Shown: positions 2,858-39,215 of the stretch, piece by piece
How positions within the stretch are numbered: position 1 is the stretch's first letter
Layout: each line of letters opens with the position of its first letter
Origin: Phytoseiulus persimilis
Taxonomy: Eukaryota; Arthropoda; Arachnida; Mesostigmata; Phytoseiidae
DNA: 64,000 nucleotides
Direction: 5' to 3'
NCBI GenBank assembly: GCA_037576195.1
Contig: CM075101.1
Location: forward strand, 7,998,001 to 8,062,000
Notes under the pieces: generated by a model
The model's input: only the letters and a program-made list of their open reading frames with translations
The model's database searches: none
What the model was told of the DNA's origin: nothing
Position numbers and translations under genes: made by a program

Positions 2858-3133
2858 GAAGAAACTAACACTTCCCAGGCTGATAATCAAGTCGAAGTGA
2901 GATATGATCTAATGATGGAATCGATCGAATCGTTCGTATGACCGCGTGGAAGTTTCTTTGTGCGTTGGCGAATTTCGAAGACATTCTGTAGAATCCATTC
3001 CAATCGGATTCGTATTGCGTTTGCCTTTGAAACATTCGTCTCTCCGCTCGCGCTCTACTTCGAAATGGGGCCCGGGGATAAGAGGCCTCGCCTGTCGACG
3101 CTGAAAGGCGTCAAGTGGTCGCTTGTCCTGGAG
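2748..3133 (+). repeat. Duplicated segment, copy 1 (partner at 24.41-25.16 kb)
   Basis: Positions 2748-2992 align with about 24408-24652, and 2993-3133 with about 25017-25157, with only scattered substitutions. Copy 2 has about 360 extra bases between the two blocks, so one copy gained or lost that piece. Copy 1 continues into unique sequence after TTGTCCTGGAG at 3133, whereas copy 2 runs straight into a copy of the HMG-CoA reductase 3' exon. Both copies are in the same orientation. Confidence 0.8.
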
Positions 3134-5422: not shown

Positions 5423-5441
5423 TCTATATATATAAAAATCC

Positions 5442-5484
5442 AGGGTCTGTTTGTTTGTTTGATTGTTTGTTTGTTTGTATGTCC
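5442..5484 (+). repeat. TTTG microsatellite in the Helitron 5' module
   Basis: A run of TTTG units with one TTTGA interruption begins about 25 bases inside the Helitron 5' end. Such a TTTG run close to the 5' terminus is common in arthropod Helitrons as I know them. Confidence 0.75.
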
Positions 5485-5785
5485 TCAATAGGCTCCTCTG
5501 GTATTGATCGGATCGACTTGGAACAAACTGCATAATGTAGGGCGGCTCTCCGGGAAGGACATAGGCCACCCACCCCTCCCCCCTCCTCCTCCCCTCCTCC
5601 CCCCCTCGCGATTTACCCCAACTTTGACCCCCTCCATACTGTCACCCGCATCCAAATTCTGACGATAAGGTGCACCGCCCCGTTATGACGCCAGCCAGAC
5701 TCTTAGGCCTCATCCCATCGTCATCGGATATCCTTCCCCAACCCCTCTCCTATACATCGATCATAAAAATCTATCTTAAAAATAT

Positions 5786-17034: not shown

Positions 17035-17203
17035 CCATGATGCTGGCCCAGTGTAAAGAGAGAAAAGTGCCTCGATCCCAGGTCAGAATCCTATCGAGGA
17101 TCGGTGGCCTCTCCCGAAAGTGTCCCGATGACACTACATGTAAGGCAATGTGTGTCTGTCAGCAGTAGACTCCCGAAGCAAGGGACGGGTCAGCCAGCGT
17201 GGT

Positions 17204-17216
17204 CGGCCGAAGGCCG
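17204..17216 (+). promoter_or_regulatory. Helitron 3' terminal hairpin
   Basis: CGGCC-GAA-GGCCG forms a five-base-pair stem ending two bases before the terminal CTAG. In Helitrons such a hairpin acts as the rolling-circle termination signal. The same hairpin and CTAG recur at 21869-21886. Confidence 0.75.
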
Positions 17217-17479
17217 GCTAGTATATATATACATATATAGAAGATGTGGTACACACCCGGGAAGAGCCTGACGCAGAGGCACGCCTCCCGCTGAGCTTTA
17301 TCGTAGAATGGTGCCATGAAGTGCCTCCCCAGGCGGAACTTGGTATTCCAGTTCCTTAATCCGGGCAAGCGTCGTAAATGAGGCTGCAGACACGATCTGG
17401 AATATGAAAGAGAAGGCGAAGCTTGAATTCCGCCCAACGAATCGTAAACGAGTCACAAAGGTTGTGATCCTCGATTCTA

Positions 17480-18763: not shown

Positions 18764-18971
18764 TATAATCGCCTAAGAAGGCCGAAATCAAGATCTGGCG
18801 GATAGTGGGGGTTTTCCCATGTAGGGAGATGATTGTTAAGCAACGAACTCACTGGAAGTCGTTGTCGCATGTATCCTGCAGCCTCGTACCATGACATGTA
18901 CCATAGCAAATGTCGTGCGAGTCGCAGCACGCTAGTATGTCGGCAGGGACCAGGGTGGTCTGGAGCCCCCC

Positions 18972-19926: not shown

Positions 19927-21656
19927 CTCTGATTCCGAGACCAATCTAGCCATTACTTTCCAACTCTGGAGGGGTGATTCCGAGACCAATCTAGCCATTA
20001 CTTTCCAACTCTGGCGGGGTGATTCCGAGACCAATCTAGCCATTACTTTCTAACTCTGGAGGGGTGATTCCGAGACCAATCTAGCCATTACTTTCCAACT
20101 CTGGAGGGGTGATTCCGAGACCAATCTAGCCATTACTTTCCAACTCTGGCGGGGTGATTCCGAGACCAATCTAGCCATTACTTTCTAACTCTGGAGGGGT
20201 GATTCCGAGACCAATCTAGCCATTACTTTCCAACTCTGGAGGGGTGATTCCGAGACCAATCTAGCCATTACTTTCTAACTCTGGAGGGGTGATTCCGAGA
20301 CCAATCTAGCCATTACTTTCCAACTCTGGAGGGGTGATTCCGAGACCAATCTAGCCATTACTTTCCAACTCTGGCGGGGTGATTCCGAGACCAATCTAGC
20401 CATTACTTTCTAACTCTGGAGGGGTGATTCCGAGACCAATCTAGCCATTACTTTCCAACTCTGGAGGGGTGATTCCGAGACCAATCTAGCCATTACTTTC
20501 CAACTCTGGAGGGGTGATTCCGAGACCAATCTAGCCATTACTTTCCAACTCTGGCGGGGTGATTCCGAGACCAATCTAGCCATTACTTTCTAACTCTGGA
20601 GGGGTGATTCCGAGACCAATCTAGCCATTACTTTCCAACTCTGGCGGGGTGATTCCGAGACCAATCTAGCCATTACTTTCTAACTCTGGAGGGGTGATTC
20701 CGAGACCAATCTAGCCATTACTTTCCAACTCTGGAGGGGTGATTCCGAGACCAATCTGGCCATTACTTTCCAACTCTGGAGGGGTGATTCCGAGACCAAT
20801 CTAGCCATTACTTTCCAACTCTGGAGGGGTGATCCTGAGACCAATCTGGCCATTACTTTCCAACTCTGGAGGGGTGATTCCGAGACCAATCTGGCCATTA
20901 CTTTCCAACTCTGGAGGGGTGATTCCGAGACCAATCTAGCCATCACTTTCCAACTCTGGAGGGGTGATTCCGAGACCAATCTGGCCATTACTTTCCAACT
21001 CTGGAGGGGTGATTCCGAGACCAATCTGGCCATTACTTTCCAACTCTGGAGGGGTGATTCCGAGACAAATCTGGCCATTACTTTCCAACTCTGGAGGGGT
21101 GATTCCGAGACGAATCTGGCCATTAGTTTCCAACTCTGGAGGGGTGATTCCGAGACCAATCTGGCCATTACTTTCCAACTCTGGAGGGGTGATTCTGAGA
21201 CCAATCTGGCCATTAGTTTCCAACTCTGGAGGGGTGATTCCGAGACCAATCTGGCCATTACTTTCCAACTCTGGAGGGGTGATTCTGAGACCAATCTGGC
21301 CATTACTTTCCAACTCTGGAGGGGTGATTCTGAGACCAATCTGGCCATTACTTTCCAACTCTGGAGGGGTGATTCCGAGACCAATCTAGCCATTACTTTC
21401 CAACTCTGGAGGGGTGATCCTGAGACCAATCTGGCCATTACTTTCCAACTCTGGAGGGGTGATTCTGAGACCAATCTGGCCATTACTTTCCAACTCTGGA
21501 GGGGTGATTCTGAGACCAATCTAGCCATTACTTTCCAACTCTGGGGGGGTGATTCCGGTACCAATCTAGCCATTACTTTCCAACTCTGGAGGGGTGATTC
21601 CGAGACCAATCTAGCCATTACTTTCCAACTCTGGAGGGGTGATTCCGAGACCAATC
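19927..21656 (+). repeat. Second 45-bp minisatellite array, about 38 units
   Basis: Same unit and orientation as the main array. The first half is marked by CTGGCGGGG and TTTCTAACT variants that recur every few units. The second half is closer to the main-array consensus. The left edge is abrupt, with no Helitron 5' terminus upstream. The last unit is truncated (CCAATCT joins GGAGGGGTGATCACGAG), so it differs from the end of the first array by an 18-base deletion. Confidence 0.95.
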
Positions 21657-21886
21657 TGGAGGGGTGATCACGAGACCAATCTGACCATACTTCTCAAAAC
21701 CATGATGCTGGCCCAGTGTAAAGAGAGAAAAGTGCCTCGATCCCAGGTCAGAATCCTATCGAGGATCGGTGGCCTCTCCCGAAAGTGTCCCGATGACACT
21801 ACATGTAAGGCAATGTGTGTCTGTCAGCAGTAAACTCCCGAAGCAAGGGACGGGTCAGCCAGCGTGGTCGGCCGAAGGCCGGCTAG
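21657..21886 (+). mobile_element. Helitron 3' module, second copy
   Basis: The module from GGTGATCACGAGACC through the hairpin and terminal CTAG (21883-21886, then T) matches 16993-17221 almost base for base; I see one clear substitution (AGTAGAC versus AGTAAAC). It ends a second, 5'-truncated or fused Helitron containing the smaller array. Confidence 0.85.
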
Positions 21887-23374
21887 TATGAAATACATTT
21901 TCATCATGCATCATCTAGATTGCGACGTGTCGCGCGGGATGACATGGGGCATCAGGCCGAGGGTTCGCCCCGGGCATCGTCGAAGGTCGGTGCGCTACTA
22001 ATTTTGGTCGAATGCTTCCTCCTGGAGGAGTCTTCCGAACCAGGAAATTTTCTTTGCCCTGGATGTGGGCTCGACGGAGCCCATCCTGTAGGGATACTCT
22101 CACCTGAATGGATCCGAAGTGCCAGAGATGAATGGGAGTCTAAGCTGCTCCGGCTTCCATCAATAGTTCTCGAAGGAGATATATTCGATTATCTCTTTTC
22201 AGTTTAGACCGTGTGGCAATTAAGCCTAAAAATGGCTGTCAAAACGAGCATTCCACCAGGGCGTAGTCATTGTGACTCGCGATCACTGTGAAATCAGACA
22301 GAACACAGCCGTCAATCTCGGTTGGTTTCCGGATATTAAACGAGAAAAACTGCCGAAGTTGCAGAACTCGAAGATGGGCGCTCGCGATGCCGATTCTTCG
22401 ACATCGCTTGATGAGGAACCCACAGCCTTCAAACACTGAACGATAGGGACCCATCTGATGGAGAAGTCGCCGTATCAAATCACTCACATCTTCTCTCTGT
22501 GATGCACTGCACATTATTCACGGGAAGGCTTGGTCAATGAATAAATGCGTGCAGCGATGCACGAACGTTTTCCCTCTCCTGCACGAATCTAACGTGTCAT
22601 CTCGGAAGTTGAATGTGCTTCCCAAAGAATGCGAGATGGTTGAAAAGGGCCGATCCCACCTGTGGGAGGTCTCTCCCAAGAAACGTGATTTTGAGCAGTC
22701 TGCGAGTTGAACGATTGATTGATTTTTCGCTAGGGCCTGATTCCCGTTCATATCACTCGAATTCCACGACATAATGGGACGGGAACTCGGAAAAGGAGAG
22801 GTCAATGAGAAATCGAACACTTCTAACAACGCAGTTTGCTGAGTCATTCCCTTCAATCTGTCGGGCGCGTACGCCGAGATGGGGAACGTTCTCACCCACT
22901 GGGAACGTCACTGACAGCAATGGAATTCAGAGATTGTTTCGGCATCGATCTGACCAAGCTTTTCGAAAATCTTCTTTTTTTGCCGTCTCAGGCTTCGGGG
23001 CCGCTGTTGTTGGCCGGAGAATTTGGCATTCACGCTCACCTGGGGGACAACCCTGGTAGTTTGGCACTCGCTCTAGAGAGAATCCAACTCAACCCCTCTG
23101 GGAGCGAGCCCGGACTAATACTCCTCAATTAGGAAATTCAGCTTCTCTGGGAACTGTTGTGCCATTTCTTCAAGTGCAGTGGAGGCATCTTTCCCATTCG
23201 TCTGTCTTCCTTAATAAATTGTTTTTTTTTTCGGTCTCGGGTTACAGAGTCGTGACTTGCGACTTCGCCAAATGTCATGTTGCTGGGAGGTGGGCCGGTC
23301 ACTGTGGCGGCATTCACCGTGTTCGCCGTGTTGCTTGGGTGAGCGGTCTGGTGAGTCGTCGCTCCTAAGTTCTC
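21887..23374. other. No gene recognised
   Basis: Only short overlapping open frames. No domain, RNA gene or clear transposon terminus was identified. Confidence 0.45.
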
Positions 23375-23605
23375 GGAATCTACGGAGCTAGTTTCGGAAT
23401 GGATCCGGCCTCACTCCCGGAGTTCTAGGAGTTGCCTCCGGGATCGATCTGATGGATTTCCCGGAATCTAGGGAAGTCATTCCGGATTTGATTTGACTAT
23501 ACTCTTCCGAGTCAAAGGAGGCGGCTCTGTGGTCGATGTCACCTTACTTTCTGGGAACTACAGAGGTGCTCACAGAAGCTTTCTGACCATAGCAGTTGGA
23601 GTCTT
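23375..23605 (+). repeat. Degenerate array with 45-bp period
   Basis: At least five successive segments line up at 45-base spacing, for example AGTTGCCTCC, AGTCATTCCG, GGCGGCTCTG and GGTGCTCACA as successive unit starts. Internal anchors such as GGTCGATGTCACCTTACTTTC and GATTTGACTATACT correspond to ATCTGGCCATTACTTTC of the young array. The units are strongly diverged from each other, so this is an old array. Confidence 0.6.
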
Positions 23606-24107
23606 CATGTTGGGGGCCACGCAGGGGAGTTCGTCGACATTTTCAAGGAAGATTGCTTGGGGAGGATGGAGCGTGTGGATGCTCTCGGCATGTGGATGAC
23701 GTATACTCATCCAGTGGCACAACGAGGGGGGGCAATGCCGGGACCCGGATTGTTTTTCTCAACGGACTTAGCAGACCTGGCAGTGGTGGATGAGATGGAT
23801 GGGCATCTCGACTGATTCTAGCTCCCGGACATTGAAAATTCCACTGCACTTCATGAAAATGTTCTACTTCTTCAAGGAAACCCGCAATCGGAGCTCTTCC
23901 AAGCTTCTCGAGTCTGAGCTTCACAAAGAAGAGCTGGGAAACTGCAAACATCATGATCGGAAAAGCATTCACTCTCCTTCCAATCGATCGGGCGTCCGAG
24001 TGTTGAGCGCGCGACGAAAGAGGACCAGAAAACGACCGTCTCTGGTGTTCTCATGTACCATATACCGGTACCTAATCAGTCAGCTACCAATCTACCCCAC
24101 TGGCACC

Positions 24108-24221
24108 TACCTTAACCAGCTGAGCCTTTCTGTTTCACACGGAAGCTGTGAAAGAAGTTTCAGCTCATTGAACCGAATGGAGACGAATATCAGAATCTGC
24201 GCTCTTAAAACAAGAATTTAA
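24108..24221 (+). pseudogene. hAT transposase C-terminal (dimerisation) remnant
   Basis: The end of a plus-strand open frame reads LSLSVSHGSCERSFSSLNRM. This matches the hAT-family C-terminal dimerisation motif, in which a conserved C-E-R-x-F-S-x-L follows a hydrophobic strand. The upstream catalytic part is not recognisable and no terminal repeats were found. It is a decayed fragment. A hAT MITE lies 2.4 kb downstream, but nothing shows that the two are related. Confidence 0.6.
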
Positions 24222-24407
24222 AATTCGGCGTTAGCATGGATCATCCGAGACCTCACCAACGTCATTGAATTAACTCGATAGAACGAGTTTGCTCACTTTT
24301 CTTGTGTGTCATCACTGGGGCCTGCAAGTTTGAGTGATCTTTTGAAATTATTCCATCGAGCGACCGGGATTGATTGATTGCGAGTAGGGGACAATCACGA
24401 AAAATCA

Positions 24408-25157
24408 GGACAGTTTCCTCTCCTCGAGCGACGAAGCGGCATCAAACAAGGCTTCGGCTTGACGTCGGGGCATTTCGTAACGCGAACGTACGCCACTCTT
24501 CCAAGTTCACTCGTCCAGTGAGAAGAAACTAACACTTCCCAGGTTAATAATCAAGTCGAAGTGGGATATGATCTAATGATGGGATCGATCGAATCGTTCG
24601 TATGACCGCGTGGAAGTTGCTTTGTGCGTTGGCGAATTTCGAAGACATTCTCACACGGTTGTTGCTCGCGTTCCCATTCCTTCGCGTACTTATCTCCATA
24701 AATGGGGAAAAACAAAACAGGGCACTGATATGATTCTCTCGCTGAAGACAGGTAATGTGGACGAGAGTAATGCTATCAAGGATGTGTAAGGGATCTCTAC
24801 ATGGGCGAAAATACTTTCATCTTCTGATATGGGAAAAAATGATTAACGAGGGGGAACTGTTGTCGAACTTCCAAAAAAATCTACCCCACAGCGGCTGATC
24901 GCTGCTGCACCTTCTAGGAACGGTTTCTCTTCTCGAGTTGCTAGGGTCCAGACTAGGAAACACGAACGTCCCATACGGGGGTTTCTCAGCCAGTTCTCCG
25001 AAAACATCTCTTCAGAGTCCATCCCAATCGGATTCGTATTGCGTTTGCCTTTGAAACATTAGTCTCTCCGCTCGCGCTCTACTTCGAAATGGGGCCCGGC
25101 GATAAGAGGCCTCGCCTGTCGACGCTGAAAGGCGTCAAGTGGTCGCTTGTCCTGGAG
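24408..25157 (+). repeat. Duplicated segment, copy 2 (partner at 2.75-3.13 kb)
   Basis: 24408-24652 matches 2748-2992 and 25017-25157 matches 2993-3133. The intervening part of about 360 bp is absent from copy 1. The right end joins the HMG-CoA reductase fragment at CTGGAGGCC. Confidence 0.8.
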
Positions 25158-25650
25158 GCCGGGGCCATGTTTATGGAAGAGCGGTTGTGCCGCATGTGTG
25201 ACTTCACGAGGTGGCCGGCAGCCAGCGCCGACAGCAGGGAGAGTTCTCCTGCCACCACGGCACCGCAAACGACTCTTGCAAGCGTCCTGGCGTTTTTCCC
25301 AGGACTGTCCGGGCTCGCGCCCTTGACGCCCAACAGCTCGAGCATTGATTCCTGAGGCGGGAGCACCGTGCCGCCCCCCACGGTGCCGACCTCTGTGGAT
25401 GGCATCGTGCACTGTATGTGGATGTCCTCGTTGTTCTCACCGCAGCTTTCGATGACGGTGATGCAGTTCGAACTACCGACGTTTTGGGCGGGATCCTGAC
25501 CCGTGGCGATGTAAATCGCGGTCACGATGCTCGCTGCCTGAGCGTTGAAGCCTCCTATTGATCAAGCCATGGCGGAACCGATGAGGTTTTTGCTTAGATT
25601 CACTTTTACCAAGGCGGACGCACTCGTTTTCAGCACGTTGCGGACGACGT
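25156..25650 (-). pseudogene. HMG-CoA reductase 3'-exon pseudogene
   Basis: About 495 bases match the last exon of the HMG-CoA reductase gene at 43245-43739 with roughly ten substitutions. The minus-strand translation keeps [15 protein letters not shown] and the KSHMRHNRS motif with its catalytic His. One change turns a conserved Gly codon after MA into a TGA stop (minus strand, 25562-25564). The N-terminal two thirds of the catalytic domain and the membrane domain are missing, and the C-terminus runs into unrelated sequence. It is therefore a non-functional fragment. The parent segment is a single exon, so absence of introns does not tell retroposition from DNA duplication. Confidence 0.92.
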
Positions 25651-25846
25651 GACATCCGCTTGGCAACCTTTTGGGTTAGGACCTAGGAGCTGCATCGGTT
25701 CGCGATTCGCGCAAATGGAGATGAAAATTGCACTCGCAAAACTTCTCACGAAATATCGACTCACATGCGACAGCGAGCCTGAGGGCGATAGGCCCCTGCT
25801 TCAACGGATAAGAGATCCTCTGATGATCAAAACAGAGTTGCTCTGA
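25651..25846 (+). pseudogene. Cytochrome P450 C-terminal fragment
   Basis: The plus-strand frame contains PFGLGPRSCIGSRFAQMEMK, the P450 haem-binding loop FxxGxRxCxG with its cysteine ligand, followed by the L helix and a tail ending in KTELL and a stop. The wording is like clan 3 enzymes (CYP3/CYP6 relatives). Only about 63 residues remain. The I helix, ExxR and PERF regions are absent upstream, where the sequence changes at once into the HMG-CoA reductase copy on the other strand. It is either an isolated last exon or a broken piece; a complete gene is not present here. Confidence 0.85.
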
Positions 25847-25849
25847 TCT

Positions 25850-26524
25850 GCTCCGTCCCCCGAAATGCCAGTCGGTGGAGTTCGGTTCACTGCAATACTC
25901 AGGCCGTTTTCTCAATGTTCGCGGAAGGATTCGGAATCTCGCGTCTCGTCCCAGAGGCGCCCCAGGCCGAGAATTGGGATGAACGAAAACGGAAAGTTTC
26001 CCATCAAAGCATGTTTCTTTTTTTCATTATTCTCGGTTCGGATAAACCGGATAATTTCCCACCGAGATATGATTACTTTTGTGAGTATATAGGGAGTCCT
26101 CGCATGGTGGGGTTCTCGGGTCCACACTACATGAAGCTTCAATATGTGGATCGCGAAGAAAGGAGGCTGAGAGCATAAAAAGAATACGTGTCTCAAACAT
26201 ATTAATTATCGCATGGCCGCTTCAGATCCCGATGATTGAGGCAGCTTGGAAAACTATATCATGCTAAGCCTCGCTTTGCGAGGGGTTTATTCAGCCACTC
26301 TTCTTAGACTCTGTTTTGCCCGCTCTACATTGTCATCTCTATGATGACTCGGGCAAAAATTCGGTAAAGAAGATCAGTTATTGGTCTGCCTGCGGTAAGG
26401 TCCCCCTTACGGAGTCTTTTCTCTTTGGGGTTACCAACCGGCCTTCACACCAGCTTCTGGGGATGTCTTCTTTTGCGACGAGCATTCTCGTGAACATTTC
26501 CGCGAGGACGATGTGTCTTCATTC
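25850..26524. other. No gene recognised
   Basis: Short open frames without domains. Nothing supported on either strand. Confidence 0.4.
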
Positions 26525-26532
26525 CCCTAGAC

Positions 26533-26728
26533 CAGTGGTTCTCAAACTCCACTGACCCATCGACCCCCTGGGCGACTTCGTTGAAGTTTGATCCACCTAC
26601 GGGGACGCCAAGAAGTATGGTCAAATCCACCCCGGCATCACCTCTGTAAACCGGAGATCGGCCATCGACCCCGTGGGGGTCGACCGTCGACCCCCAGGGG
26701 TCAATATCGACCACTTTGAGAACCACTG
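26533..26728. mobile_element. 196-bp hAT MITE with 8-bp target duplication
   Basis: The element starts CAGTGGTTCTCAAA and ends with the exact reverse complement, giving 14-bp perfect terminal inverted repeats of classic hAT type. It is flanked on both sides by CCCTAGAC (26525-26532 and 26729-26736), the 8-bp duplication expected of hAT insertion. It has no coding capacity. The interior contains inverted CGACCCCC/GGGGGTCG motifs and a diverged unit of the 45-bp repeat family. Confidence 0.93.
26588..26650 (-). repeat. Diverged 45-bp-family unit inside the hAT MITE
   Basis: On the minus strand the MITE interior reads GAGGTGATGCCGGGGTGG, then ATTTGACCATACTTCTTGG. Exactly 45 bases after the first GGTGAT-like start comes AGGTGGAT. 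This corresponds position by position to GGGGTGATTCCGAGACC and ATCTGGCCATTACTTTCC of the Helitron array, and is closer still to the divergent last array unit (TGACCATACTTCT). Confidence 0.6.
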
Positions 26729-26736
26729 CCCTAGAC

Positions 26737-28221
26737 TTTCGATAGTTTCTCCTGCTGTCTCGTCCGGGCCTGCGGCTGTCTCAATGGCTACATTCATCCC
26801 ATTTCCGAGTGACAATGACAATCGAATCCAAGCTGGCTCTTCTACAAAGCTCCCGGAAGGTTCTTTCGGGGAAGGCTTTCAACCACTGAGGGACCCACGG
26901 GAGCACACTCGATGGACGCCGTTTCGTACCTCGGTTGAGCCGCGAACACCCTCGATGGCGCTCCTGTCGTTCTAGGATTCGCGGTGCTCAGATTCCAAGT
27001 TTTCAAGGAATTTCAGAGGGAGAGAGCTTGACAAACATTGAAACTTTCATGACTCACGGAGAGTCCTCCAACCGTATTGGGCACACTGACACATGGTTGC
27101 TCACGTGGAGGATGTGTCGAAGTGATCGTATGCATAATTATGCTTCCTCGGGTGCTTTCGCTAGGACTCCGCCGAGACAAAGCCCCACATAATACGCGAA
27201 GTGTATTCATTCCACAACTTTATCTCACAACACGGCAACTCCCTCTTCCTTTGAGCTGCAAATGCTCCGCATCATCGAAATTCAGCATCCAAACATGGAT
27301 CTTCTTTCCGGCAAACCTACCGAAGAAATTGGTACTTTGTGGTTCGTAAACTGCGAAACTCTCTGCAAAGAAAAATATTTTTCGCGCTCACCTGCAGTTT
27401 CTCGTCTGCATATCTACGCAAGGTTTCAGTCAATGTTTATTTTCCTGTCGCACGCTGATCAAAGAATAATGTAATTGTCGGTTGGTTTTGACACGATTTG
27501 CCCTTCAAAGGTCGTGCTTGGAAAATGCTGGAGGTTTCATATGGGTCGGGCGAAATATGGAGCGACCGCGTCTGGCGAGGCAAGTCTGATGGCGGGAGCT
27601 GCTCATTCAGAGCTGATCTCCGATTCATTCCGATGATACTGATCGAATCTCCAAAATATCTTCAGAATCATGAGCGTTCGGAAGGGGCGCATGCGCATGA
27701 ATGAATTCTAGCGGCCAGCGGCGTTGATTTGGATTATATTCGTACTGAAAAGCGACCGCCGGGGGTAAGAAATGTCTACACCGTGGTCGTGACCCACGTG
27801 GTCGTGAGAACCCACAGCTACGTCTCAGACACATCCGTGCGTAACATACAATGCTCGCGCCAATCTGAACCAGGGTCTCAGTTCGCGAGTTTCGTTATAC
27901 ACTGCTGCAGTCTTGCGCGTTCATTTCCTCACTGTTGCCATGAGCCGGTGCTCACAAAGTCCCAGGTCTCCGATAGCTCTGAGTGCCCTGGCCAAGAGCC
28001 CTTCTTCGTCTGAAACTCCTAGCGCAGCTCAACAGGCGCAACGCACGAAAACTCAAACTCATGCGAAGCAGAATGTAGATGTTTTTCGGGGATACCGATT
28101 CGTGACTTCTCGCTATGGGCTGGCGCTCTCCTCACAATTTCCAAGATGTTAGACGATTTGGAGGCATGGTGTCAGCGGATCCCGAACTAAGGTTCACGGC
28201 TCCTGCTGCTCGAGACATGGT
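26737..28221. other. No gene recognised (upstream of semaphorin)
   Basis: Scattered short frames only. It could include the semaphorin promoter and 5' untranslated exons, but no element is identifiable. Confidence 0.4.
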
Positions 28222-30661
28222 GTGAAAGCCTCCCTGAACCTCCATCTTCCCCTGTTTCCGTCGGAACGAAGCTTGGGCAACGGTGACATGCGAGCCTCGC
28301 CGTTACTTGGAGCTGCGGTTGCGTTGAGTGCGTTTTCTAGTTACATACCCAGCAGCCACAGAACGCACTTCTCATGTGGGAAGCTCTACTACAGGACGAT
28401 GCTTTTGGATGAGGCTCACGATAAATTGTACATCGGCGCGATGGATGCCGTTTTCAGGTTGAGCTCGAAAAATGTTAACCGATCCCGGTAAGTTTCCCCA
28501 GCGGGCACTCGGCTCAAATTTTCGCGAACGTTGATTGAAGTGCTCGAATCGAGTGTCGAGGAATCGGGATTGGAGAAGGAGCATTTGGGCGGAGCCCGGA
28601 GAGAGCTCGTCGTTCACTCGACGCTTCCAATATCGGAGGTCCACGGAGACCTATTCTTGTCTCATTGGAGGCTGATGCTCACTCTTCATGGGAATACCCC
28701 CCAGGTGAAACCAGAGCACTAAACTCCACGAGCCGATAATTTTTCGTTCCCGAACCCGATGGAACTTTGCCTCGAAACCTACCCTGCTTTCGACGCTTAG
28801 CTCGATAACTCTCTAGCACTCTCTGCAGACTGATTGACGAATCGAAAGCTGAACAGCGAATCCCGTTAGACAAGAGCAGACTATGTAGCCTCGTCCCAGC
28901 CCGGGAATCCTAAAACCGTTCATCTCGGACTCTTGGGAGGCTAAAGTCATGCAGGAATTCCCTTCTCTCCATTGCAGGTGTTCCACGAATCACGTTTCAC
29001 TCGAACCAGACGATACCACAAGCTGCGTTGCGAGGGGTGGGAGCGAGGACTATGAATGTCGAAATCATATAAGAGCGCTCCATGCTGTCCGCGGCGAGCT
29101 TCTGTACGTCTGTGGTACGAATGCTCAGAATCCAAGAGATTGGCTTCTCAGTGTGAGTGGCGAGGCAAACTTGCTATACAGGAGTATTGCTCCTATTCCA
29201 TCTCGCGGAATTTCGCGATCCATCGCGGAATAAGACGGAACATCCTGCTCATGATTCTCAGACATCTTGCTCCCAGGCGAACCTGGTCGACTTCAGTTCC
29301 TTGGTCCCGACGGTTGGTACCGGTGCGGGAAGATGCGCCTTCGGCCCTGATGATCACGTCACCTCAGTCTGGGTGGAGCGGGGTAACCCTGGACATCTGC
29401 AAGGACTCTACTCAGGGACCGTTCTCGACTTCACCAAAACAGACAGGGGCATTATTCGCTCCGACCTCATCAATTATGAAACTTTGCAAAAAAGCTACGA
29501 CTCCTTGAGAACAGTCAGATACGACAAGAGGTGGCTGAATGGTCCAGAGTTCGTATCCTCTTTTGCCATCGGAGACTACGTGTATTTTTTCTTCCGTGAG
29601 CTCGCCGTCGAGTACTCGAACTGTGGCAAAGTCATCTACTCGCGGGTGGCTCGTGTTTGCAAGAAAGACGTCGGAGCTGGGAAGAGTAACCTGAACAACG
29701 TGTGGGCAACTTTCATAAAAGCCCGGCTCAACTGCTCGATTCCCGGCGACTTTCCGTTCTACTTCAACGAAATTCGATCCGTTTTCAAATCTGACGAGGA
29801 TGACATGTTTTACGCTGTCTTCTCTACACCGACGAACGGAATTTTCGGATCGGCCGTATGCGCGTTCTCTTTGAAGGCCATCAACCAGGCTTTCAGCGGC
29901 CCATTCAAAGGACAGAAGAACTGGGATTCTGCGTGGTTGCCCGTTACCCAGTCGAAAGTTCCGAAACCGCGACCAGGCACGTGCGTCAACGATACCATGG
30001 CCCTGCCTGAGCTCATGCTGCTCTTCCAGCGGAACCATCCCCTCATGCACGCAGCTGTCAGCTCCCAAGGAAGCCGACCGATCCACTTCGAGTGGGTGGC
30101 CCATTTGTTCCCCTATAAATAGCGAGAACCAGTTCATTCTGAGTTCGGATTCCTCTCCAACACGGCTGACACATGGTTTCCCGGTTCCAGGCCCAACGTG
30201 GTTTTCACTTCAATCGCTGTGCATCGCAAAAAGCGCGTGAACGCCTTGAATGCTTTGATATTCTACGTCGGATCCTCTGACGGCCACGTTTACAAGATTT
30301 TGCAGGGTGGATCTGGAAGCGATGAGCCGTTGTCGTATATCGCGGATGAATGGTGCATCGCCAACGAACCGATTCGACGGCTCGAGATTTCCCAGAAGCT
30401 AGGGATGCTTTACGTGGCATCAGATTCTGGTTGGTTCTCCATGGATCTCGGGCGCCCTACCGATGGTTCACAATGACTTTCAGGCAATGCTAGCTGGTAC
30501 AGCTTGCTCACTAACCAGGATGCGGAAAATCTCTTGCAGGCATCACTCAAATCAATCTCTACATGTGTGAGCAGCGCTACGATGAGGAGGAAGCGTGCGA
30601 ACGCGACCCGTACTGCAGTTGGGACCCTCAGTTGGAGTGCATTTCAGTTGTATCGGATTAG
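28222..30661 (+). CDS. Sema2: Class 2 semaphorin (sema and PSI domains)
   Basis: Five exons chain in phase: 28222-28487, 28978-29152, 29277-30091, 30191-30429 and 30540 to a TAG at 30659-30661. Donors are GTAAGT, GTGAGT, GTGGGT and GTTGGT. The start is ATG at 28222, or at 28288 where MRASPLLGAAVALSAF looks like a signal peptide. The sema propeller shows FSCGKLYYRTMLLDE, LYVCGTNAQNPRDW, GDYVYFFFRELAVEYSNCGK, ARVCKKDVG, KARLNCS and PRPGTCVNDT, closest in wording to Drosophila Sema2a. A PSI motif (MCEQRYDEEEACERDPYCSW) ends the visible coding. Class 2 semaphorins are secreted axon-guidance cues binding plexin B. The Ig domain expected next was not found. Exon 5 either ends at the TAG or splices at a GT just before it. 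Family very secure; the 3' end is not. Confidence 0.9.
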
Positions 30662-33600
30662 GACAGCGAATCTAATAAGTCAAGGAGTTTTCGGGAACAG
30701 AAAACAGCTCAGAGTACGACGTACCTAAGTGACGATGGTTTACGGACGCTTCCTGGTCACCTGAGGAGAATAACACCTTAAGGCCGATGGACGGCAGACT
30801 CCATCCCAATGCTAAATATAGTTGTTCGGGCAGACTCGAAGTGAGATCACATGTAGCAACTCCCTTTCTTTGACTTCCGCGCGCAGTTGATCCGGCAAGC
30901 TAAAATGCAGTGACTCCTTATCGACAACGACGCAGAATCGCAGTTCACATTTCGGAACTTTCGATGTCTCCCTTAATAGTACTCTGGTGGTATCTCTCGA
31001 GGTCACGGGTTTGCTTTAGGAATCGGACAGAGATGCTGACGTCGTTGTGAAGTTTTGACAACAAGCGCAGCTTCTTCGCAGAGCTGTTGCTTTCTGGAGC
31101 CTCATCTAGCTTGCCTAGCTCTCGACCACTGGGTGTAGTTTTCGAACTACCGCATCTCTAGTTGTGACTACGAGTCGGAATCTCAGGATTCCTGACTTCA
31201 CCAATCTATCCCCATCTGGTTAACACGCCCCAACTCCCTCTACAAGGGACGGACTCTCATAACCCTCATCACCAACTTCCTGAGCCCGCTCAAGAGTAGC
31301 GAGAGCGCTTTCGAATAATCAAAGCTGAGCGAGGAGACGAGCGGCCCTATTACCCGCGAAGGCGCTCGAGGAGTACGATTATAATTGTTTCATCCAAGAA
31401 ACTGAAAGGAGCGGATTAACTTAGAACGGTGCAGGAATGGCCCCGTGTGTCTCCGACCTTCTCTGGAAGCTTTTCAATTTTTCGAAATGATACGATTGGG
31501 TTTGGTTTTATTCTCGAAAGACGGGGTCAGGAGGGGAGGTAAACGTTTGGCGATTCGAAGCCGTTCCCCAGTGTGGAAACAGGAGAGCGTCGGTGTTCCG
31601 TGCTCGAAAAGCAAATCGAGCACTTCAAAAGACGCTTTACCACACGACGCCCAACATGACCCACAGTAATTCTGCGATTTTATGAAGATTCCCAAATGAA
31701 CATTTACTTCCGATGAATCGAGCGGCACTTCCGTATCATGCTAGTCCGGACGATATTCGGACACCCAGATTGCACACTATCCGGCTCGATGCGAGGAATC
31801 GTTCAGATTATTGAGTCTAGACTAGCGTTATTACACTAACGTTGACGTTGCACTAACGTTGCAGGAATAGTTCCATGACGAAATCCATAGAGGACCTAGT
31901 TTTTGAAACGAAACAGCGCATCTCGAGATTGCCAGTGGAGTGAAAATCAGCGAGAAATGAAGCCAAACACGTCGACGCGATCGACACATATTGCACAGGT
32001 AGAAGACGGGATCTTCAAACTGGAATCACAGATTCGGAGGGACGACCTGAGAGAGTACAATAACGTTTCCATGGAGAACCAAAGTTTGCAAGACAGTGTG
32101 CGTCCCAAAGAGGCCCCCTCATATTATGTGTGGCTCTTGAGTTTTTTTGAGAGGTGCATTCTCTCGAACCATTTTTTTTACTCGGAAGCTGCCGAATCAG
32201 GCAGGTGGGGTCAGAACCTTCGTTAGGCTTCTCTCGCATTGATTCACAGGATGTTCGGAAGAACGCATCTGAGCATGATATTTTCTCATCCGGTCCAGGA
32301 TGGCTTATGTAGGGGACACGAGGAGAGAACTCGTCGTCAGAAATGGAGTTTTCTGACGAAGCTGAAAGTCGTGATGATCCGGATGATTGGGTGAAAAGCC
32401 CGCCATATTTCGTGGATTCCTCTGTGAATTTTCAGCCAGGTCAGCATGGGCCTCACCGACGGATCAAGGGGTTCCATGGAACGACGCCTTCTATCCAATT
32501 TGATGGATTTAAAGGCTGAACCCCGTTCGGCGCCTGATCCTTGGGGTAACGCAGACGTCCATGTCTTGGAAAAGTCGCCGAGGAACTAGCGCCGAGTTAC
32601 AAGAATAGCTACGAGGAACGGTGTTTGCCGTCGGGGCATCACTGATGGCATTCCGGGGCGGAAATATCCACAAACAACCCCAGTGAGAACGGAATACCAC
32701 CTTCTTTATGGAACAAATCTGGGATGGGGCAAGAGCAGGGCAAAAGTCCCGGAGGTTCTGGTGAAAGTATTGAGGTCGCAAGGAGCCGCGGAGACGATCA
32801 AAGGTGGATTAGAGTGACTTCGGTCAGATCTCCAGAATCGATCGAATCGAGAGATCTAGTGTAAATCCTCCGATTCCTGATGACCAAAAAAGCATAACCC
32901 CTCACTGGAGCCCAAGCGAGTAACCCATTACGAGACAAAGAATACTATCCCCAAGAATATCACGATCCGAGGTAGAGACGGGAGATGGACGCGTCGAAAT
33001 GGGTTTGGAAAAAGCGGAGAGGCAATACAGAACAGCGCGAGATGCTGTTCGAGCTTAAATCGCAAATCGAGTCCATATTTAAGTTTGTGGGATGCGCCAC
33101 CAAGGCAGGAGAGCTCTCTGGCGAGCTCTAACTAAGGCATTCCGGGAGTATGCTCGGGAGAGATCGAGAAAAAGACACCAACAGGAATTCGACCATCAGA
33201 TTGGGAAAGAAACGATATCCCAACGTTGAATATTATCTCCCACTCTATTGGAGGTGCCAGTTACCTCCTGGACGCCAATGACACTCGCAAGCGCACGGAA
33301 CGCCGTATTCCCTCCAGAGCGCCGAACGAAATAATTACAACAGGCTTGAATGTGGAAGCGATCCGCGCAAGATTCTCCTCGCATTCAGCAACCGAACCGG
33401 ATAGAAAACTCGGCCAGAAGCACTCTGAGACGTAGGGTATGCCAACAAGAATATGTGAGGCGCACATGAGCCGCTAATTGGGAAAACACACAACAAAGGC
33501 CAGAGGACTGCGACCGACGGAAGGGGTCAACGAACAAGGACGAAATAGGCTCAAAAGAGGTTGCGGAGGCGAGAGCAACACTTTCAAGGAACACATGGTA

Positions 33601-35970
33601 TGAGGACGATGTCCGAGCCCGCGAGAACGAAGCGGAGGGATCTGATTTTGGATGATACATGGTTGGATCTTTCCTGCCGCGAAGACACCGAGAGCAAAAG
33701 ATGAATCGGAGAGATGAAATCGCATGAGCTTTCGGACATCCAGCACAACACTCTCTCTTGCGACCCCTTCTGAGGTCACATGTCATTTCGAAACCATTGC
33801 CAGACCGAAATCAATATAAGCTACTTCTTTCTAGTTTCCTGGAGGCTGTTTGCTTCTTCCGCCTATTTCTCTGGAAACTCTTGGAGCAGCTGATTTTGTG
33901 GAATCCCAAGTACACAGATGGAGTTCGGCGCGGACTCTGAATGTTCTATGAGATATCGCTCCCTCTGTCGCAGGCGGAACTCGGAAACGTCGCCTCCCGC
34001 GAATTTCGTTGTAGTAGAACGGAAATCGAGTGACACCCACCCATGACCAACAATGAGCTCTACTTGACACCATCCCTCTCGGGTACCAGATCTCCGATGG
34101 GCGATGGTTGACGAAGATGTTGATGGAAACGCCACCTCTTCGGAACTGCGGCCCACGGAGCACCGGGTAGAGCGAATTTCTAACGGGGAGCACAGAACAC
34201 GGATACGAAAGACAGTATCATGGATGAGAGCTCATACTGGAGAGAAGACATGGCTCCCAGGTATCGAGAGCGATATTTCTACCCACACTGAATCGAAGGC
34301 GGAGACCACTCTGAAAGAGTCCGGAAAATTCTCTTTCGGTCGGGAAGTTCTAGGATTCCATCATTATCGATCGACTTCGAATCTCGTGTCGGTGTCCATT
34401 CAGTGCCAAAGCCTAGGGGGAAGCTTCGCTCCTTCCCAATCTTTCCCGGACAGTTCACAAGATAATCGAACCCTCTCCGGATGACATGTTCACGTCCCTG
34501 TCATTCCGTGAAACGAGTTCGTTTTTCGAAAGGTTTATCTGCGCTAATCGATGAACAATCGACAATCAATGCTCATTCGATTGATCGGCTGTTCCGCCGA
34601 TCGGTCGGTAGGTAGATCTGAGTGTCGATTGTAGAGCCCGTCAAATGGCTTCCAATTTACATAAAAAAAAAGGTTCCGCAATCGCTAAGTACCGGGACGC
34701 CCCATCTGCCCGATACGAAAATCGAACTTCGGAGGTCATGTCGCTATCATTGTCAACAGGCCGTTGCCGTGAAACTATCTTCTTCCATGATGGGTTACGG
34801 CACCACTGCTCACAACTGGATGTTGTTGATTCCCAAAACAATACGGATTCTGCAAATTCGCTGCGCTCGGGGCACGAGTATTCGAACCCACGTGAATCAC
34901 ACAAGCGAGAGTTTCCACCACTGTACTTTTTTTCAACTGAAGAGCACACGTGCAGTGGGATCGAGTTCTGAAGAGTAGAGATTCCCGGACGGTTGTGGAA
35001 TCGGAGGGCACGATTTTCTCATCATCGGATCCCAGCAGCAGGATCTGACCTCCCAGCGATTCCTTCCGGACCTGAATCGGATGGGAACGGATCGGGAATT
35101 GGATGAGGAAAGAGCAGCAACTACATAGGATGAGAGATATGAATTTTTGAGCCATATTCCACAGCTGCGCGATGGGCAGTTTCGAAAGAACAAATGAGCT
35201 GGTCTTGATTTTCGCTGAAATTCCACCCGAAATAGAAGTATATTTCTCCGGGAGCAAAGTATTTGTTGTCTCTAGAGCTATCTCTGAACGCCTGCTCATC
35301 ACAATTCATACGTTGAGAGAATACATCAGCTGGATCATGTAGCTCGTCGAACGTCTATCCGGTACCCAGAGGCTTGCGCCATCGTGGATTCGTGAATGCT
35401 ACAACATAATTCTGAAGACTGCTTCAATGCGTCGCAGGAGAAACCGGGCTCACTCGCCACGATGCATGGTCCAATCAACATCCGACAAGAACAGTCCGAT
35501 TCCTACGAAAGTCCATTCCCCATATCTTCGTACCTCCGTATAAATCATTCCACAGCGAGGGAACGTTCCGAGTTCTAGCTATCGATATTGACTCACGGCC
35601 CTTCGCTAAGAAGTCCCATTGCTACTGCAATAGGGGTCTGCAATGTTCAGACATCTGTTTGGTCGAATGTCGAGTTGCGGAACCTAGGAGAGGATTACAA
35701 GTACCTGACAATCACTTTCTGGATCCAAACGGATGAGCTCGACTAGCCATCGGCGACACCATGGAGATGGATGGATTGCGGTGCCTCGATCGGTAGTATT
35801 CGACGTCCATATTTCGAGCGATGAGCAAGGTTTTCGCAACGATCATGTCTTCGATCCAGAGTTTCCTGTGAGCTGCGAAGAAACTGAATCTTCCCGAGCG
35901 GGATCGAAAACGGGCTGCTGGAATCCGCGCTGAGTGGTCTCCACCCGTTGAGTCGGAAGTTCTCGGGAGG
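30662..35970. other. No recognised gene; possible semaphorin 3' region
   Basis: No Ig-domain exon for the semaphorin and no known domain was found. An isolated HTGEK motif near 34.2 kb lacks zinc-finger cysteines. A minus-strand open frame at 35121-35309 (APGEIYFYFGWNFSEN) is protein-like, but its splice boundaries are unclear. Confidence 0.4.
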
Positions 35971-35978
35971 ATAATTAC

Positions 35979-36129
35979 GTAAACGAGGCCCGGACGTAAT
36001 TAGACAGAGTTTCTCCCCGACGTTGAGAACGCCGTATAGCTGACTCATGCCGGCTGAGGCGGGATTTTCCAGCCATCCGTAAGGCTCCACGCAGTCCACG
36101 AGACCGTACGTCGTGGTTCGGTGTATACC
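35979..36129 (-). CDS. Possible orphan exon
   Basis: A minus-strand frame of 50 codons lies between an acceptor CATCCAG (AG at 36131-36130) and a GTAATT donor (36978 side is not involved; donor bases 35978-35977). The content is protein-like: GLVDCVEPYGWLENPASAG, then LYGVLNVGEKLCLI. No neighbouring exon with matching phase was established and I do not recognise the family. The acceptor lies within a few bases of the 36.13-kb inverted-repeat arm. Confidence 0.35.
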
Positions 36130-36133
36130 CTGG

Positions 36134-36280
36134 ATGCCGAAAAATCGAGCCAGAAATGCATGAAGCCGAAAAATCGAGCCCGAAAAGCATGAAGCCGAAA
36201 AGCATGAAGTTGAAGAGCGTGAAGCCGAAAACCTCCTCACCCAACAGCGGAGCGGTCGGGACTGGCTTAGCGGGGAGGAA
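36134..36280 (+). repeat. Inverted repeat, left arm (partner 36617-36738)
   Basis: The arm contains GCATGAAGCCGAAAA units at about 15-bp spacing, then CCTCCTCACCCAACAGCGG and GTCGGGACTGGCTTAGCGG. The reverse complement of 36617-36738 follows the same order (AAGCATGAAGCC, CCTCCTCTCCCAACGGCGG, TTCGGGACTGGTTTGGCGG). The arms are diverged, roughly four fifths identical by eye, and about 340 bases apart. Confidence 0.8.
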
Positions 36281-36390
36281 TTGCACCTTCGTTGTGCTCA
36301 GCCTACCTACTTCTTCTGCCTCGCTTACGTCCTCGCTGTTCCGCATCTTCAGTCCCTAGTTCGAACTCAGCAAAGGTGTAGCTGCTACAG

Positions 36391-36562
36391 GAAGCAATCT
36401 GCTGAGCGCGAATATTGAAGTTTCCGAGGTCAACTCGCTAGAACTGAAGAGGAATCTTCACCTCCAGCTCCAGTACTATTCGCAGAATACGCTGTTACAA
36501 CACCTTGTTCTTCCCCACCGAAGAGGGAAAACCGGCATTGAAACACTGATTCTTCGCTGCAG
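36391..36562 (+). CDS. Possible orphan exon inside the inverted-repeat loop
   Basis: After GCTGCTACAG (AG at 36389-36390) a plus-strand frame is open for 57 codons up to CTTCGCTGCAG and a GTGCGT donor at 36563. The content is protein-like and Leu/Gln-rich (ELKRNLHLQLQYYSQNTLLQ). There is no start codon, so it would be an internal exon. The family is not recognised and no partner exon is known. It lies entirely between the two arms of the inverted repeat. Confidence 0.3.
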
Positions 36563-36616
36563 GTGCGTTTCATCTAAATGAGTCTCACAAAGGTACAGAT
36601 CGACGAAACGATACAG

Positions 36617-36738
36617 AAATCCCATCCCGCCAAACCAGTCCCGAACACTCCGCCGTTGGGAGAGGAGGTTTCCGGCTTCATGCTTTTCGGACTCGATTTT
36701 TCGGCTTCATGCGTTTCGAGTTCGAATTTTCGGCTTGT
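36617..36738 (-). repeat. Inverted repeat, right arm (partner 36134-36280)
   Basis: Reverse-complement partner of the left arm. Similarity ends near TGGGATTTC on the inner side and near the CCGACAAGCC stretch on the outer side. No target duplication or known terminal motif was seen. Confidence 0.8.
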
Positions 36739-37149
36739 CGGAACCTAACCCGTGGTTCTGTTCGAAGCGGCGTCGAATGTTATCCCGAGACTTTGGTCCC
36801 TGAACTCGGCAGCACGACTCGCACTGCTGCATGAGGGGTTGGCCAACTCATCATGCAGGCGGAGGAGAACGGGAGGAATTTACGAAGATGGGCGCACTCC
36901 GTGTTCGTCGTTTACTTCCAAGAACTTCGAGGATCAGCTCCGATGGATGGAGCGAATCAAGGGCTGGTGGAGATCAGCAGTGTTTTCCGGTTCCCTGGGT
37001 GGGATTCGAACGATTCCGGACCTCAACAATCCCCCCGGTCGATGTAACCATCGACGGGTCCTGTTCGAGAACGGTTCTGTGAGTGTCCTGTGGCAGAAAT
37101 CTCTCCGGCATTCCCCCTGATCGTTTTCGTATTTTTCATGAATCTTGAA

Positions 37150-37750
37150 TCTATATATATAAAAGACGCCGGCCGGTCTAACCTGTGATCCGAATGAACG
37201 CCAGGGCAGCGGCTCGGAGCTTGACGGAACCTCGCATACTCACGCGGAATCGGCCCCAAATAGGCCGCCTGATACTTTTCTTGAAAACCTCCGGAAGCCG
37301 GAATACGAAGGAGACTTGAAAACTTCCTTGTCGCCGGCCGCAGTATCTTCCAGTTCCAAAGGGCGCGCCTCGTCCAACCGCTTTTTCCACGGTCACAAAC
37401 CGAGAAAACTCGGGAACTTTGTCGTCGCATGCGAAAGAATTTCTCTGTTCGGATGAGCACGCCAAAAACCAATGGCCTGCGGCGCGGTCCTGTAGCGATT
37501 TTGCTATCGTGAAAAACGCGGTGCACAGCGATTCGACTGCGTCTGTTCGTTCATCGTGCCGTTGCTCGACGCCGTAGAGCCCGTGACGACACGGTGCGAG
37601 GAAAGTCGGACGGCTGCCCACCCGATACAGGGAGTGAACATCCTCAGGTCGCCTTCCTTCCAAGCACGGTAAGGTTCACCTGCGACAGTCACTTCCACGG
37701 CCCGACCGTCAACGCTCTCCCGCCGTTGCGCCCTCGGATCCACACCATTT
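37150..37750 (+). mobile_element. Second Helitron 5' terminus (fragment)
   Basis: TCTATATATATAAAAGACGCC follows an A at 37149. This is the same first 15 bases as the Helitron start at 5423, after which the sequences diverge. No matching hairpin-CTAG end was found downstream, so this is a partial or different-family Helitron and the right boundary given is arbitrary. Confidence 0.5.
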
Positions 37751-38548
37751 CTAAACTACAAGGTAAATGTGAACCGTAATTGATGTGAACCGCACCGCCG
37801 ATATCATCGCGGCCAAGCCTGAACTAGCTGCAGTGCGATTGATCAACTGCCATGATGGGCGTCCCGAAAAGTCAGCTATTCTGAAAGACGGAGAATCCTG
37901 CTCCAGGTCCTTCAAGAGCAAGAGATCAATCGTAGAATCCCGTTGTCAACGACGACAGATACAGTTGACGCGGGACCACTCCCGACAAAAGTTTGGGAAA
38001 GACGCAATTTCCATCAGGACGTTGCGGACAAAACTACATCGATGTGGTGAGAGATCCTCTGGTTGACCTGGGTGGTGGTCGAACCTCCTTACGTCGGAAA
38101 AGTCGTCGATGGGCGAAACGCGAAATTCAGGAATGGTCAATTGAATCTAGAATGTCGTCAAACCTCATCCTGGATCCGCCCAGAGAACAATGCGAGAGAA
38201 ATCACCTCGAACAAGAAAAGGTCTCCCCGAACCGGATGACTGCGATAGGATGTTGAAAGCATGTTGATCGGGATAAGCCTCCTCTATCGTGAAGACAGAT
38301 ACATGATCTATTGAATGAACTACCTATATGCCGCACATCAGGGCTCGACAAAGTCAGGGCCCCGGGACAAGATACCTGCCCAGCGCCCGAAATCTGGGGC
38401 CCCGGTGCCGACCAGGGATCTGGCTCCGTGCTCAGGTAGGGAGTATCCGGGCTCGGCCTCGGGATGGTTTTGGGACAATTTCGGGCCCGACCACGGAGTC
38501 GATCTGATTGATCAAACTTTTTGGAGTCGATCTGACCGAATGTTTGGG

Positions 38549-38665
38549 GGTATGTCGACATGATTCCTGAGTCGATGTGGCAATATTTTCCAGGATCCAG
38601 AGGGTGATTTCGGAATGGATCTTGGCTTACTTCCGAGGAGTCACAGAGGTGATCCCGAAGAAGCC
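38549..38665 (+). repeat. Degenerate 45-bp-family units
   Basis: TGATTCCTGAGTCGATG, then TGATTTCGGAATGGATC, then TGATCCCGAAG start at exact 45-base intervals. TTGGCTTACTTCC in the middle unit corresponds to CTGGCCATTACTTTCC of the young array. Two to three diverged units in plus orientation. Confidence 0.6.
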
Positions 38666-38667
38666 AG

Positions 38668-38800
38668 AAAATGCCTCAGATCATGGCTTCGGGGCCCAAA
38701 ATACGCCGCAGATCATTTGGCCGGAGCCCAACTCTCGGAACGTGCGCGAAGAGTGCTTCTGTGGGTGATTTTCCTCCGAGTGCTTACGGGTCGACCTGGA
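38668..38800 (+). repeat. Inverted repeat, left arm (partner 39335-39480)
   Basis: The arm runs from CTCAGATCATGGCTTCGGGG through ATACGCCGCAGATCATTTGG and GGGTGATTTTCCTCCGAGTG to GCTTACGGGTC. The reverse complement of 39335-39480 keeps the same order (CCAGATCATGGCGCCGAGG, ATACGCCCCGGATCATTTA, GGGTGATCTTTCTCCGAGTG, CCTACGGGTCC). Translations of both arms share CAK, GD and PSAYGS motifs by virtue of this homology. Confidence 0.8.
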
Positions 38801-39118
38801 TTTCATCTCTGAAGTGTTCCGGGGCAGATTTCGGATACGAATGGCATCTGTGAAACTCGCTGATCGGGTAAGCGGAATGAATGAGAGAATGGATCACTGA
38901 GTCAATCGAAGTGGTCCGACTCAAGCGTGAGGTTCGGAATATTGTGGATTCTACAGAAGGAAAATGAGATGCGTCTGGTCACGGTAGAAGTCCACACACA
39001 CTTGTGTGGTTCGCTTTATTCGTATCACAGCGAATCGTGGTCATGAAGGGTATCACATTATTCTCATTCTGAACCCAGAATCATTCATGTTAATTCTCTT
39101 GGACTAATATTCAAGAAT

Positions 39119-39215
39119 CGACCTCGGCATCATCCCCATGGACCTCAAAAAGTATGGTCAAGTCGACCTCGGAATCACTTCCGTGAAGCCAGAGAAGTAT
39201 GGTCAGGTCGAGGGA
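39119..39215 (-). repeat. Degenerate 45-bp-family units, reverse orientation
   Basis: On the minus strand TGATTCCGAGGTCGACTTGA is followed by CCATACTTTTTGAGG, and 45 bases later by TGATGCCGAGGTCGATTC. A partial third unit (CGACCTGACCATACTTCT) precedes them. These align with TGATTCCGAGACCAATCTGG and CCATTACTTTCC of the Helitron array, the clearest of the dispersed relatives. Confidence 0.7.

Follow-up and report, generated by a model that had tools for sequence, protein, structure and literature searches.

The sequence analysed here, which we call the window, is a stretch of 64,000 nucleotides of Phytoseiulus persimilis (assembly GCA_037576195.1; contig CM075101.1, hereafter C1, positions 7998001-8062000), in a genome of 181 Mb and 127 contigs. 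It encodes an HMG-CoA reductase, a nuclear-receptor ligand-binding domain, a Sema domain and a mariner transposase. It also carries a repeat unit of 45 bp, which is present as a young tandem array inside a Helitron and as old, diverged units at four loci near 23.4, 26.6, 38.5 and 39.1 kb. The evidence set out below indicates that this unit is probably shared by several non-autonomous families of DNA transposons, as a tandem repeat in their interior. The relevant features of the window are listed here; types I and II are two forms of the unit, MITE stands for miniature inverted-repeat transposable element, TIR for terminal inverted repeat, and the bit scores come from a profile rebuilt from loci outside the window and run on the masked window.

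5423..17221, plus strand: Helitron A, copy 1, young and non-autonomous; its two ends also delimit two more copies
5785..17027, plus strand: young type II array of about 250 units of 45 bp, found with Tandem Repeats Finder
17014..17037, plus strand: last unit of the array, divergent and placed at its 3' edge, closer to either older type than to the consensus of the array
19930..21886, plus strand: Helitron A, copy 2, with about 38 units and a 3' end (CTAG at 21883-21886); no 5' end found
23370..23591, plus strand: eroded type I units, about 5 in number, within a segment of about 2.5 kb that recurs (21900-24408 in the stretch searched); 96.6 bits
26533..26728, minus strand: hAT MITE B, with TIR CAGTGGTTCTCAAA and target duplication CCCTAGAC at 26525-26532 and 26729-26736
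26594..26657, minus strand: interior of the hAT MITE, with about 1.4-1.5 type I units; 47.9 bits
37150..39559, plus strand: Helitron D, old and non-autonomous, with 5' end TCTATATATATAAAAGACGCC after A and 3' end GGGTACGCTGG before T
38519..38658, plus strand: about 3 type I units in Helitron D; 70.0 bits
39057..39211, minus strand: about 3.4 type I units in Helitron D, in the opposite orientation; 93.7 bits

The first-pass annotation had read the four loci as diverged relatives of the array unit that keep an exact spacing of 45 bp. To score them we used a circular profile of 45 columns, whose first version included the window and which was then rebuilt three times from outside loci (34 in the last round). 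All four loci, at 47.9-96.6 bits, scored above every one of 100 shuffled windows obtained by first-order resampling (best 31.3 bits, mean of the maxima 22.9) and above the reversed window (29.0 bits), and we regard them as real and diverged relatives. The rebuilt profile is blurred, and it also matched the opposite strand at 23.4 kb (51.4 bits), 39.1 kb (53.0), 38.5 kb (37.8) and 26.6 kb (24.1); because of this, the strand of each locus was assigned from the stronger match. A search with nhmmer from a hand-made seed of three units found all four loci as well (E from 2.6e-14 to 1.2e-5), while its reversed control stayed empty. It should be noted that this seed was drawn from the window loci, so that its independent matches are only those in L019 and L022, two of 20 blind loci of 10 kb whose positions were fixed before they were seen (numbers with the prefix L denote loci fetched from the genome). 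Regarding the spacing, measured between core matches of at least 8 bits and with no imposed period, the steps were 44 and 45 bases at 38.6 kb, 45, 45 and 49 at 39.1 kb, and 88 and 45 at 23.4 kb; at the 26.6-kb locus, of about 1.5 units, the period is read from one partial repeat, 45 bases apart (counted by hand). The exact 45-base spacing is therefore kept in most steps, and slips of 1-4 bases occur.

Relatives with this periodicity are present throughout the genome, as had been anticipated. The 13-mer TGACCATACTTCT of the last array unit has 996 exact places, against 3 for the reversed pattern, and the core GACCATACTT occurs twice within 30-60 bases at 1463 places, against 0 for its reverse. 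Among 100 of these paired-core places listed, 62 were exactly 45 bases apart (hand count) and 35 of the other 38 lay within an irregular stretch, C1:430482-441168, in which the spacing was 45 in 8 of 43 listed pairs. Outside the array at C1:430-447 kb, 25 of the 28 listed pairs were at 45, 2 at 44 and 1 at 46. The irregular stretch is part of a long type II array and has irregular unit lengths, perhaps owing to a poor assembly consensus; the remainder, up to 446923, is regular. In addition, the core of the old type, GGAGGTGATTCCG, likewise paired at 30-60 bases, was found 32 times at about 14 places from C1 to C4 (reversed, 0), with a spacing of 45 in 25 cases, 44 in 6 and 46 in 1; a single array at C1:11.757 Mb accounts for 17 of the 32. 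In the blind loci, a profile of both types gave 6 matches of at least 26 bits in 4 of the 20, the maximum in the control being 26.5 bits. The match in L023 (28.2 bits) is near that maximum, which leaves 5 clear matches in 3 loci; extrapolated with a wide margin of error, this rate would amount to thousands of places genome-wide.

The carrier of the young array is a Helitron. Copy 1 of Helitron A begins with TCTATATATATAAAAATCCAGGG and consists of a 5' region of about 360 bp, the 45-bp array (about 11 kb, the longest in the window) and a 3' region of about 190 bp, ending in GGCCGAAGGCCGGCTAG followed by T. Two further complete copies, with both ends as in copy 1, are located at C2:2.7 Mb, and these three copies share the termini TCTATATATATAAAA..CTAG. 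A T follows directly 3' in both window copies and in the two C2 copies, whereas the end in L032 is CTA and then T in place of CTAG; the 5' end is preceded by A in window copy 1 but by G in one of the C2 copies. Arms of the type GGCCGAAGGCC, read by eye, form a hairpin directly before CTAG. The consensus unit of the group is CCAATCTGGCCATTACTTTCCAACTCTGGAGGGGTGATTCCGAGA. A search with the 3' end returned 561 first-look candidates, 40 of which were scored; the family searches used queries that include the unit, with 40 candidates scored, so that copies free of the unit would escape. Long open reading frames run across the arrays, and we rejected them as genes, taking them for by-products of the 45-base repeat. 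The query Helitron_like_N (Rep/helicase) had 101 matches in the genome. A Rep match at C2:2700550, about 10 kb upstream of A 3' ends, was considered as part of an autonomous carrier and discarded, two separate non-autonomous A elements being present there. A strong Rep frame at C3:24.45 Mb (L050, L051) is flanked by a type II array and by palindrome X, described below, and no Helitron with A ends was recognised around it; about 1-2.4 kb upstream of the Rep match at C3:24450345 there is another tandem repeat, whose period is about 138 bp (L050:1445-2863). In L032:1-1601, one Helitron A 3' end runs directly into the interior of another Helitron A that has no 5' end, an arrangement that a rolling-circle concatemer might show. 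Between both window copies there is a mariner at 17472-18771, with an uninterrupted transposase frame of 342 aa (17661-18689) and inverted ends 97% alike over 39 bp.

The loci at 38.5 and 39.1 kb are both contained in one older Helitron, element D, and consequently the four loci cannot be counted as independent, as they had been at first. Its extent is common to the window, L001 and L002. The 3' end reads CGCTAG and then T in L001, and CGCTGG and then T in L002 and in the window; in the window, the 5' end is preceded by an A, and all three copies have a T directly after the 3' end. The terminal 5' TC is present in the window copy only, since L001 starts at TATATAAAA and the fetched L002 stops short of the end. 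A hairpin, GCGAAGCGC, was read by eye near the 3' end. Elements A and D thus end like canonical Helitrons, with 5' TC and 3' CTRR. In L001, the end of D abuts a sequence that resembles another Helitron end.

The 26.6-kb locus had been placed inside a hAT MITE, and reading the TIRs and the 8-bp target duplication confirmed it. Element B has short TIRs, an 8-bp target duplication and no transposase, as hAT MITEs do. Its length is 196 bp in the window and 220 bp in L005, and the target duplication is exact in the window and L045, 7 of 8 bases in L035 and 6 of 8 in L005. The family gave 392 first-look candidates, and the unit was spanned in all 40 scored copies. The number of units differs within the family, with about 1.5 in four copies and 3.6 in L019.

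A third kind of carrier is formed by long palindromic elements, C, G and X, in which the units lie between inverted arms. In C the arms are of about 350 bp, and 37 of 40 scored copies span the centre; its 1598 first-look candidates are not a copy number, because the query holds units. Inverted matches between the two flanks reached 627 bits in L047 (G) and 315 in L051 (X), and 320, 221, 206, 124, 85 and 65 bits in the C loci L033, L004, L029, L030, L034 and L003, respectively, while 200 random positions gave at most 31.9 bits; the test is impossible for arrays that reach the end of a locus. Palindrome X, met in L051, has arms of 278 bp, 86% alike, around 5.6 units, and in G the unit number varies, some copies containing many. 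No consistent target duplication was seen at the ends of C, G and X that were read. On sequence likeness, the three palindromic families may represent one lineage.

To determine how common these carriers are, we assigned 28 loci at listed places of the 13-mer, 8 from a first cut and 20 picked by hand from the same list; the picking skipped some listed places, both clustered and single, and the sample is biased towards that one 13-mer. Twenty-five of the 28 were placed in five transposon groups: Helitron A (11, of which 9 through shared flanks and L032 and L043 by reading), palindromic C (7), hAT MITE B (3), Helitron D (3) and palindromic G (1, L047). The remaining three, L037, L041 and L042, have no assigned carrier. 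In L022, L041 and the L019 array, one end looks like that of a Helitron, a candidate reading made by eye. The units at 23.4 kb belong to the segment of about 2.5 kb, which is found again at C1:5406722 and, as five tandem copies, at C2:15.586-15.614 Mb. The surrounding 21900-26500 is a patchwork of copied segments, with the appearance of captured gene fragments: 43243-43736, within the HMG-CoA reductase frame, has a 98% copy at 25157-25650; 2744-3133 has 95-96% copies at 24408-24651 and 24999-25157; and 25650-26500 matches C1:7.653 Mb. Finally, L049:466-3670 (about C1:222.8-226.0 kb) contains an array of type I in which a higher-order period of 224 bp, equal to about five units, is seen.

The units fall into two types, TCGATCTGACCATACTTTTCGGAGTCTACGGAGGTGATTCCGGGA (type I) and CCAATCTGACCATACTTTTCCAAGTCTGGAGGGGTGATTCCGGGA (type II), separated in 194 of 200 bootstraps of a tree of 17 groups, built on 45 columns and only from matches assigned to a named group. 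Type I comprises hAT MITE B, Helitron D, L022, L041, L031b, the 23.4-kb segment, palindrome G and the array of L049; type II comprises Helitron A, L001a, L019, L037, L042, L046b, L050 and palindromes C and X. Both types are present in Helitrons and in palindromic elements, and the hAT MITE has type I. Since both occur in more than one kind of transposon, the unit type does not follow the transposon kind. The units have probably passed between transposon superfamilies more than once, and exchange or repeated capture is the simplest reading of types that cut across carriers; both types may instead have survived from an ancestral pool. As for the divergent unit that ends the young array, it was said to be closer to the old relatives than to its own array, and this holds by 3-4 sites only: over 22 columns, it agrees with type I at 17, with type II at 18 and with the array consensus at 14. 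Such a position is expected if the edges of an array escape homogenisation.

Taken together, we consider it fairly likely that the 45-bp unit is an internal tandem repeat of several non-autonomous DNA transposon families, a confidence slightly lowered because L049 remains without a carrier. Helitrons move by rolling-circle transposition, and on this explanation they would spread the unit in that way, as the array that they carry. Within a copy, unequal exchange or slippage would enlarge and homogenise the array, with growth in place being our assumption, and the edge units would keep an older sequence. Dead Helitrons would then erode mainly by point mutation, leaving short islands of units still in the 45-base register, as in Helitron D. 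Elements A and D support this part of the explanation, on spread and erosion. Pieces of arrays may have come between the inverted ends of the hAT MITE and of the long-palindrome elements and multiplied there, and the finding of two types, each in several transposon kinds, would mean that capture or exchange probably occurred more than once. While the carriers, the register and the two cross-cutting types are observations, the capture step and its direction, from Helitron to TIR element, are what we infer from them. The release of units from Helitrons, proposed by the first-pass annotation, survives in part: together with erosion it accounts for D, but the hAT MITE and the palindromic elements need an entry of the unit into other transposons, which that annotation had not put forward.

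Several observations weigh against the explanation. The array of L049 has flanks of 465 and 526 bp with no inverted repeat (21.1 bits, below the background maximum of 31.9) and no match to any other fetched sequence, and a further type I array, C1:11757409-11758276, is known only by its paired cores. No inverted flanks were found in the C member L008 (16.6 bits), nor in the Helitron A arrays, L037 and L042. The arms of C and G, and the ends of C and X, are weakly alike, in keeping with a single lineage; the MITE copy in L019 has its left end, and its right end was not found. When the flanks were clustered automatically, a small number of short or weaker links (L001-L006, L002-L003, L003-L040 and L003-window) merged A, C and D, which were split by hand. 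The tree is limited to 45 columns, with G drawn from 1.4 units. Furthermore, no autonomous Helitron with A ends was found, in a search that covered the sequence of one candidate and, for the remaining A ends listed, a comparison by eye with the Rep matches.

Among the alternatives, an old free satellite of 45 bp could have come first and then been acquired separately by the Helitrons, by the hAT MITE and by the palindromic elements. The type I array of L049, with its higher-order period and its flanks matching nothing else fetched, the second array at C1:11.757 Mb and the occurrence of type I in all three carrier kinds speak for it. However, 25 of the 28 loci of the biased sample are in transposons, and a carrier-free array could be a Helitron array that has lost its ends, so that we regard this origin as rather unlikely. 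The old copies, which mostly lie inside transposons, are for the most part not a free repeat family; L049 leaves room for a genome-wide family that seeded the Helitron array.

A bolder version of the explanation that we prefer would see in the unit a portable module of 45 bp, exchanged repeatedly among Helitrons, a hAT family and a palindromic lineage and kept as an aid to its carriers, with two constrained blocks; we hold this to be improbable. Somewhat less probable still is that the unit has a function, such as that of a site recognised by a protein of the host or by a transposase, and that several superfamilies keep it under selection because a transposon benefits from it. The differences between the group consensuses are indeed distributed unequally along the 45 columns, two blocks (about ATCTGACCAT and GGTGATTCCG) being quieter, and in 5000 simulations the observed unevenness was reached in 0.22% for type I and in none for type II or for all groups. 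Nevertheless, the groups are not independent and inherited differences alone give uneven columns, single-strand folding is ordinary (z from -1.71 to 0.59 in six sequences), and no protein or known motif was tied to the unit.

Nesting, by which transposons without a unit of their own would have inserted into or beside 45-bp arrays, is very unlikely: adjacency is seen in L001, where the D end meets the Helitron-end-like sequence, and in L032, where an A 3' end runs into another array, but the unit lies inside the ends of the hAT MITE in 40 of 40 scored copies, two copies read have exact target duplications, and in C, G and X the unit is situated between the arms; for B, C and G, nesting is contradicted by these results. 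Chance similarity or low-complexity sequence can practically be dismissed, since the reversed controls gave none for nhmmer, the paired cores or the old-type core, 3 against 996 for the 13-mer, and the shuffles at most 31.3 bits, the few matches of a low-threshold reversed control being two of 22-23 bits and one of 26.5.

Regarding known systems, the open-access literature searched, mostly at listing level, contained no description of the 45-bp unit and none of one unit common to Helitron, hAT and palindromic elements. The distribution of the unit brings a debated question within reach of a test, namely whether satellites are generated or acquired by transposons, and whether a unit can move from one transposon to an unrelated one. 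The comparisons that follow refer to the parts of the cited papers that were consulted. In Crassostrea gigas, the Cg_HINE elements are non-autonomous Helentrons with internal arrays of short tandem repeats, distributed genome-wide and some of them related to classical satellites (PMC7492417); according to a later review, the same arrays are found across different Helitron elements and outside them (PMC12628747). They resemble the carriers described here in having a tandem array inside non-autonomous rolling-circle elements, whereas their monomers average 140-180 bp and all 13 clusters are in Helentrons, against a 45-bp unit that is also in a hAT MITE and in palindromes (PMC7492417). The miDNA4 element of Xenopus is a Tc1/mariner MITE with an internal satellite, confined to one superfamily and with no report, in those portions, of its unit in Helitrons (PMC12628747, PMC9659126). 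DINE-1 and its relatives in Drosophila share the Helitron-type carrier, and their central tandem repeats also give rise to satellite arrays, but the repeat is another one and, as far as seen, there is one carrier kind (PMC4067079, PMC9659126). In molluscs, satellite repeats and Helitrons form a network, with arrays inside and outside the elements; in the parts consulted, TIR elements are not named as sharing the monomer (PMC5139131, PMC8268682). Helitrons and MITEs that carry tandem repeats are thus known singly, and what is new is the spread of one unit across superfamilies: a single unit, in two types, present in the Helitrons, a hAT MITE and the palindromes of one genome and in at least one array for which no carrier was found, a pattern suggesting that a repeat of the satellite type is able to move among unrelated transposons.

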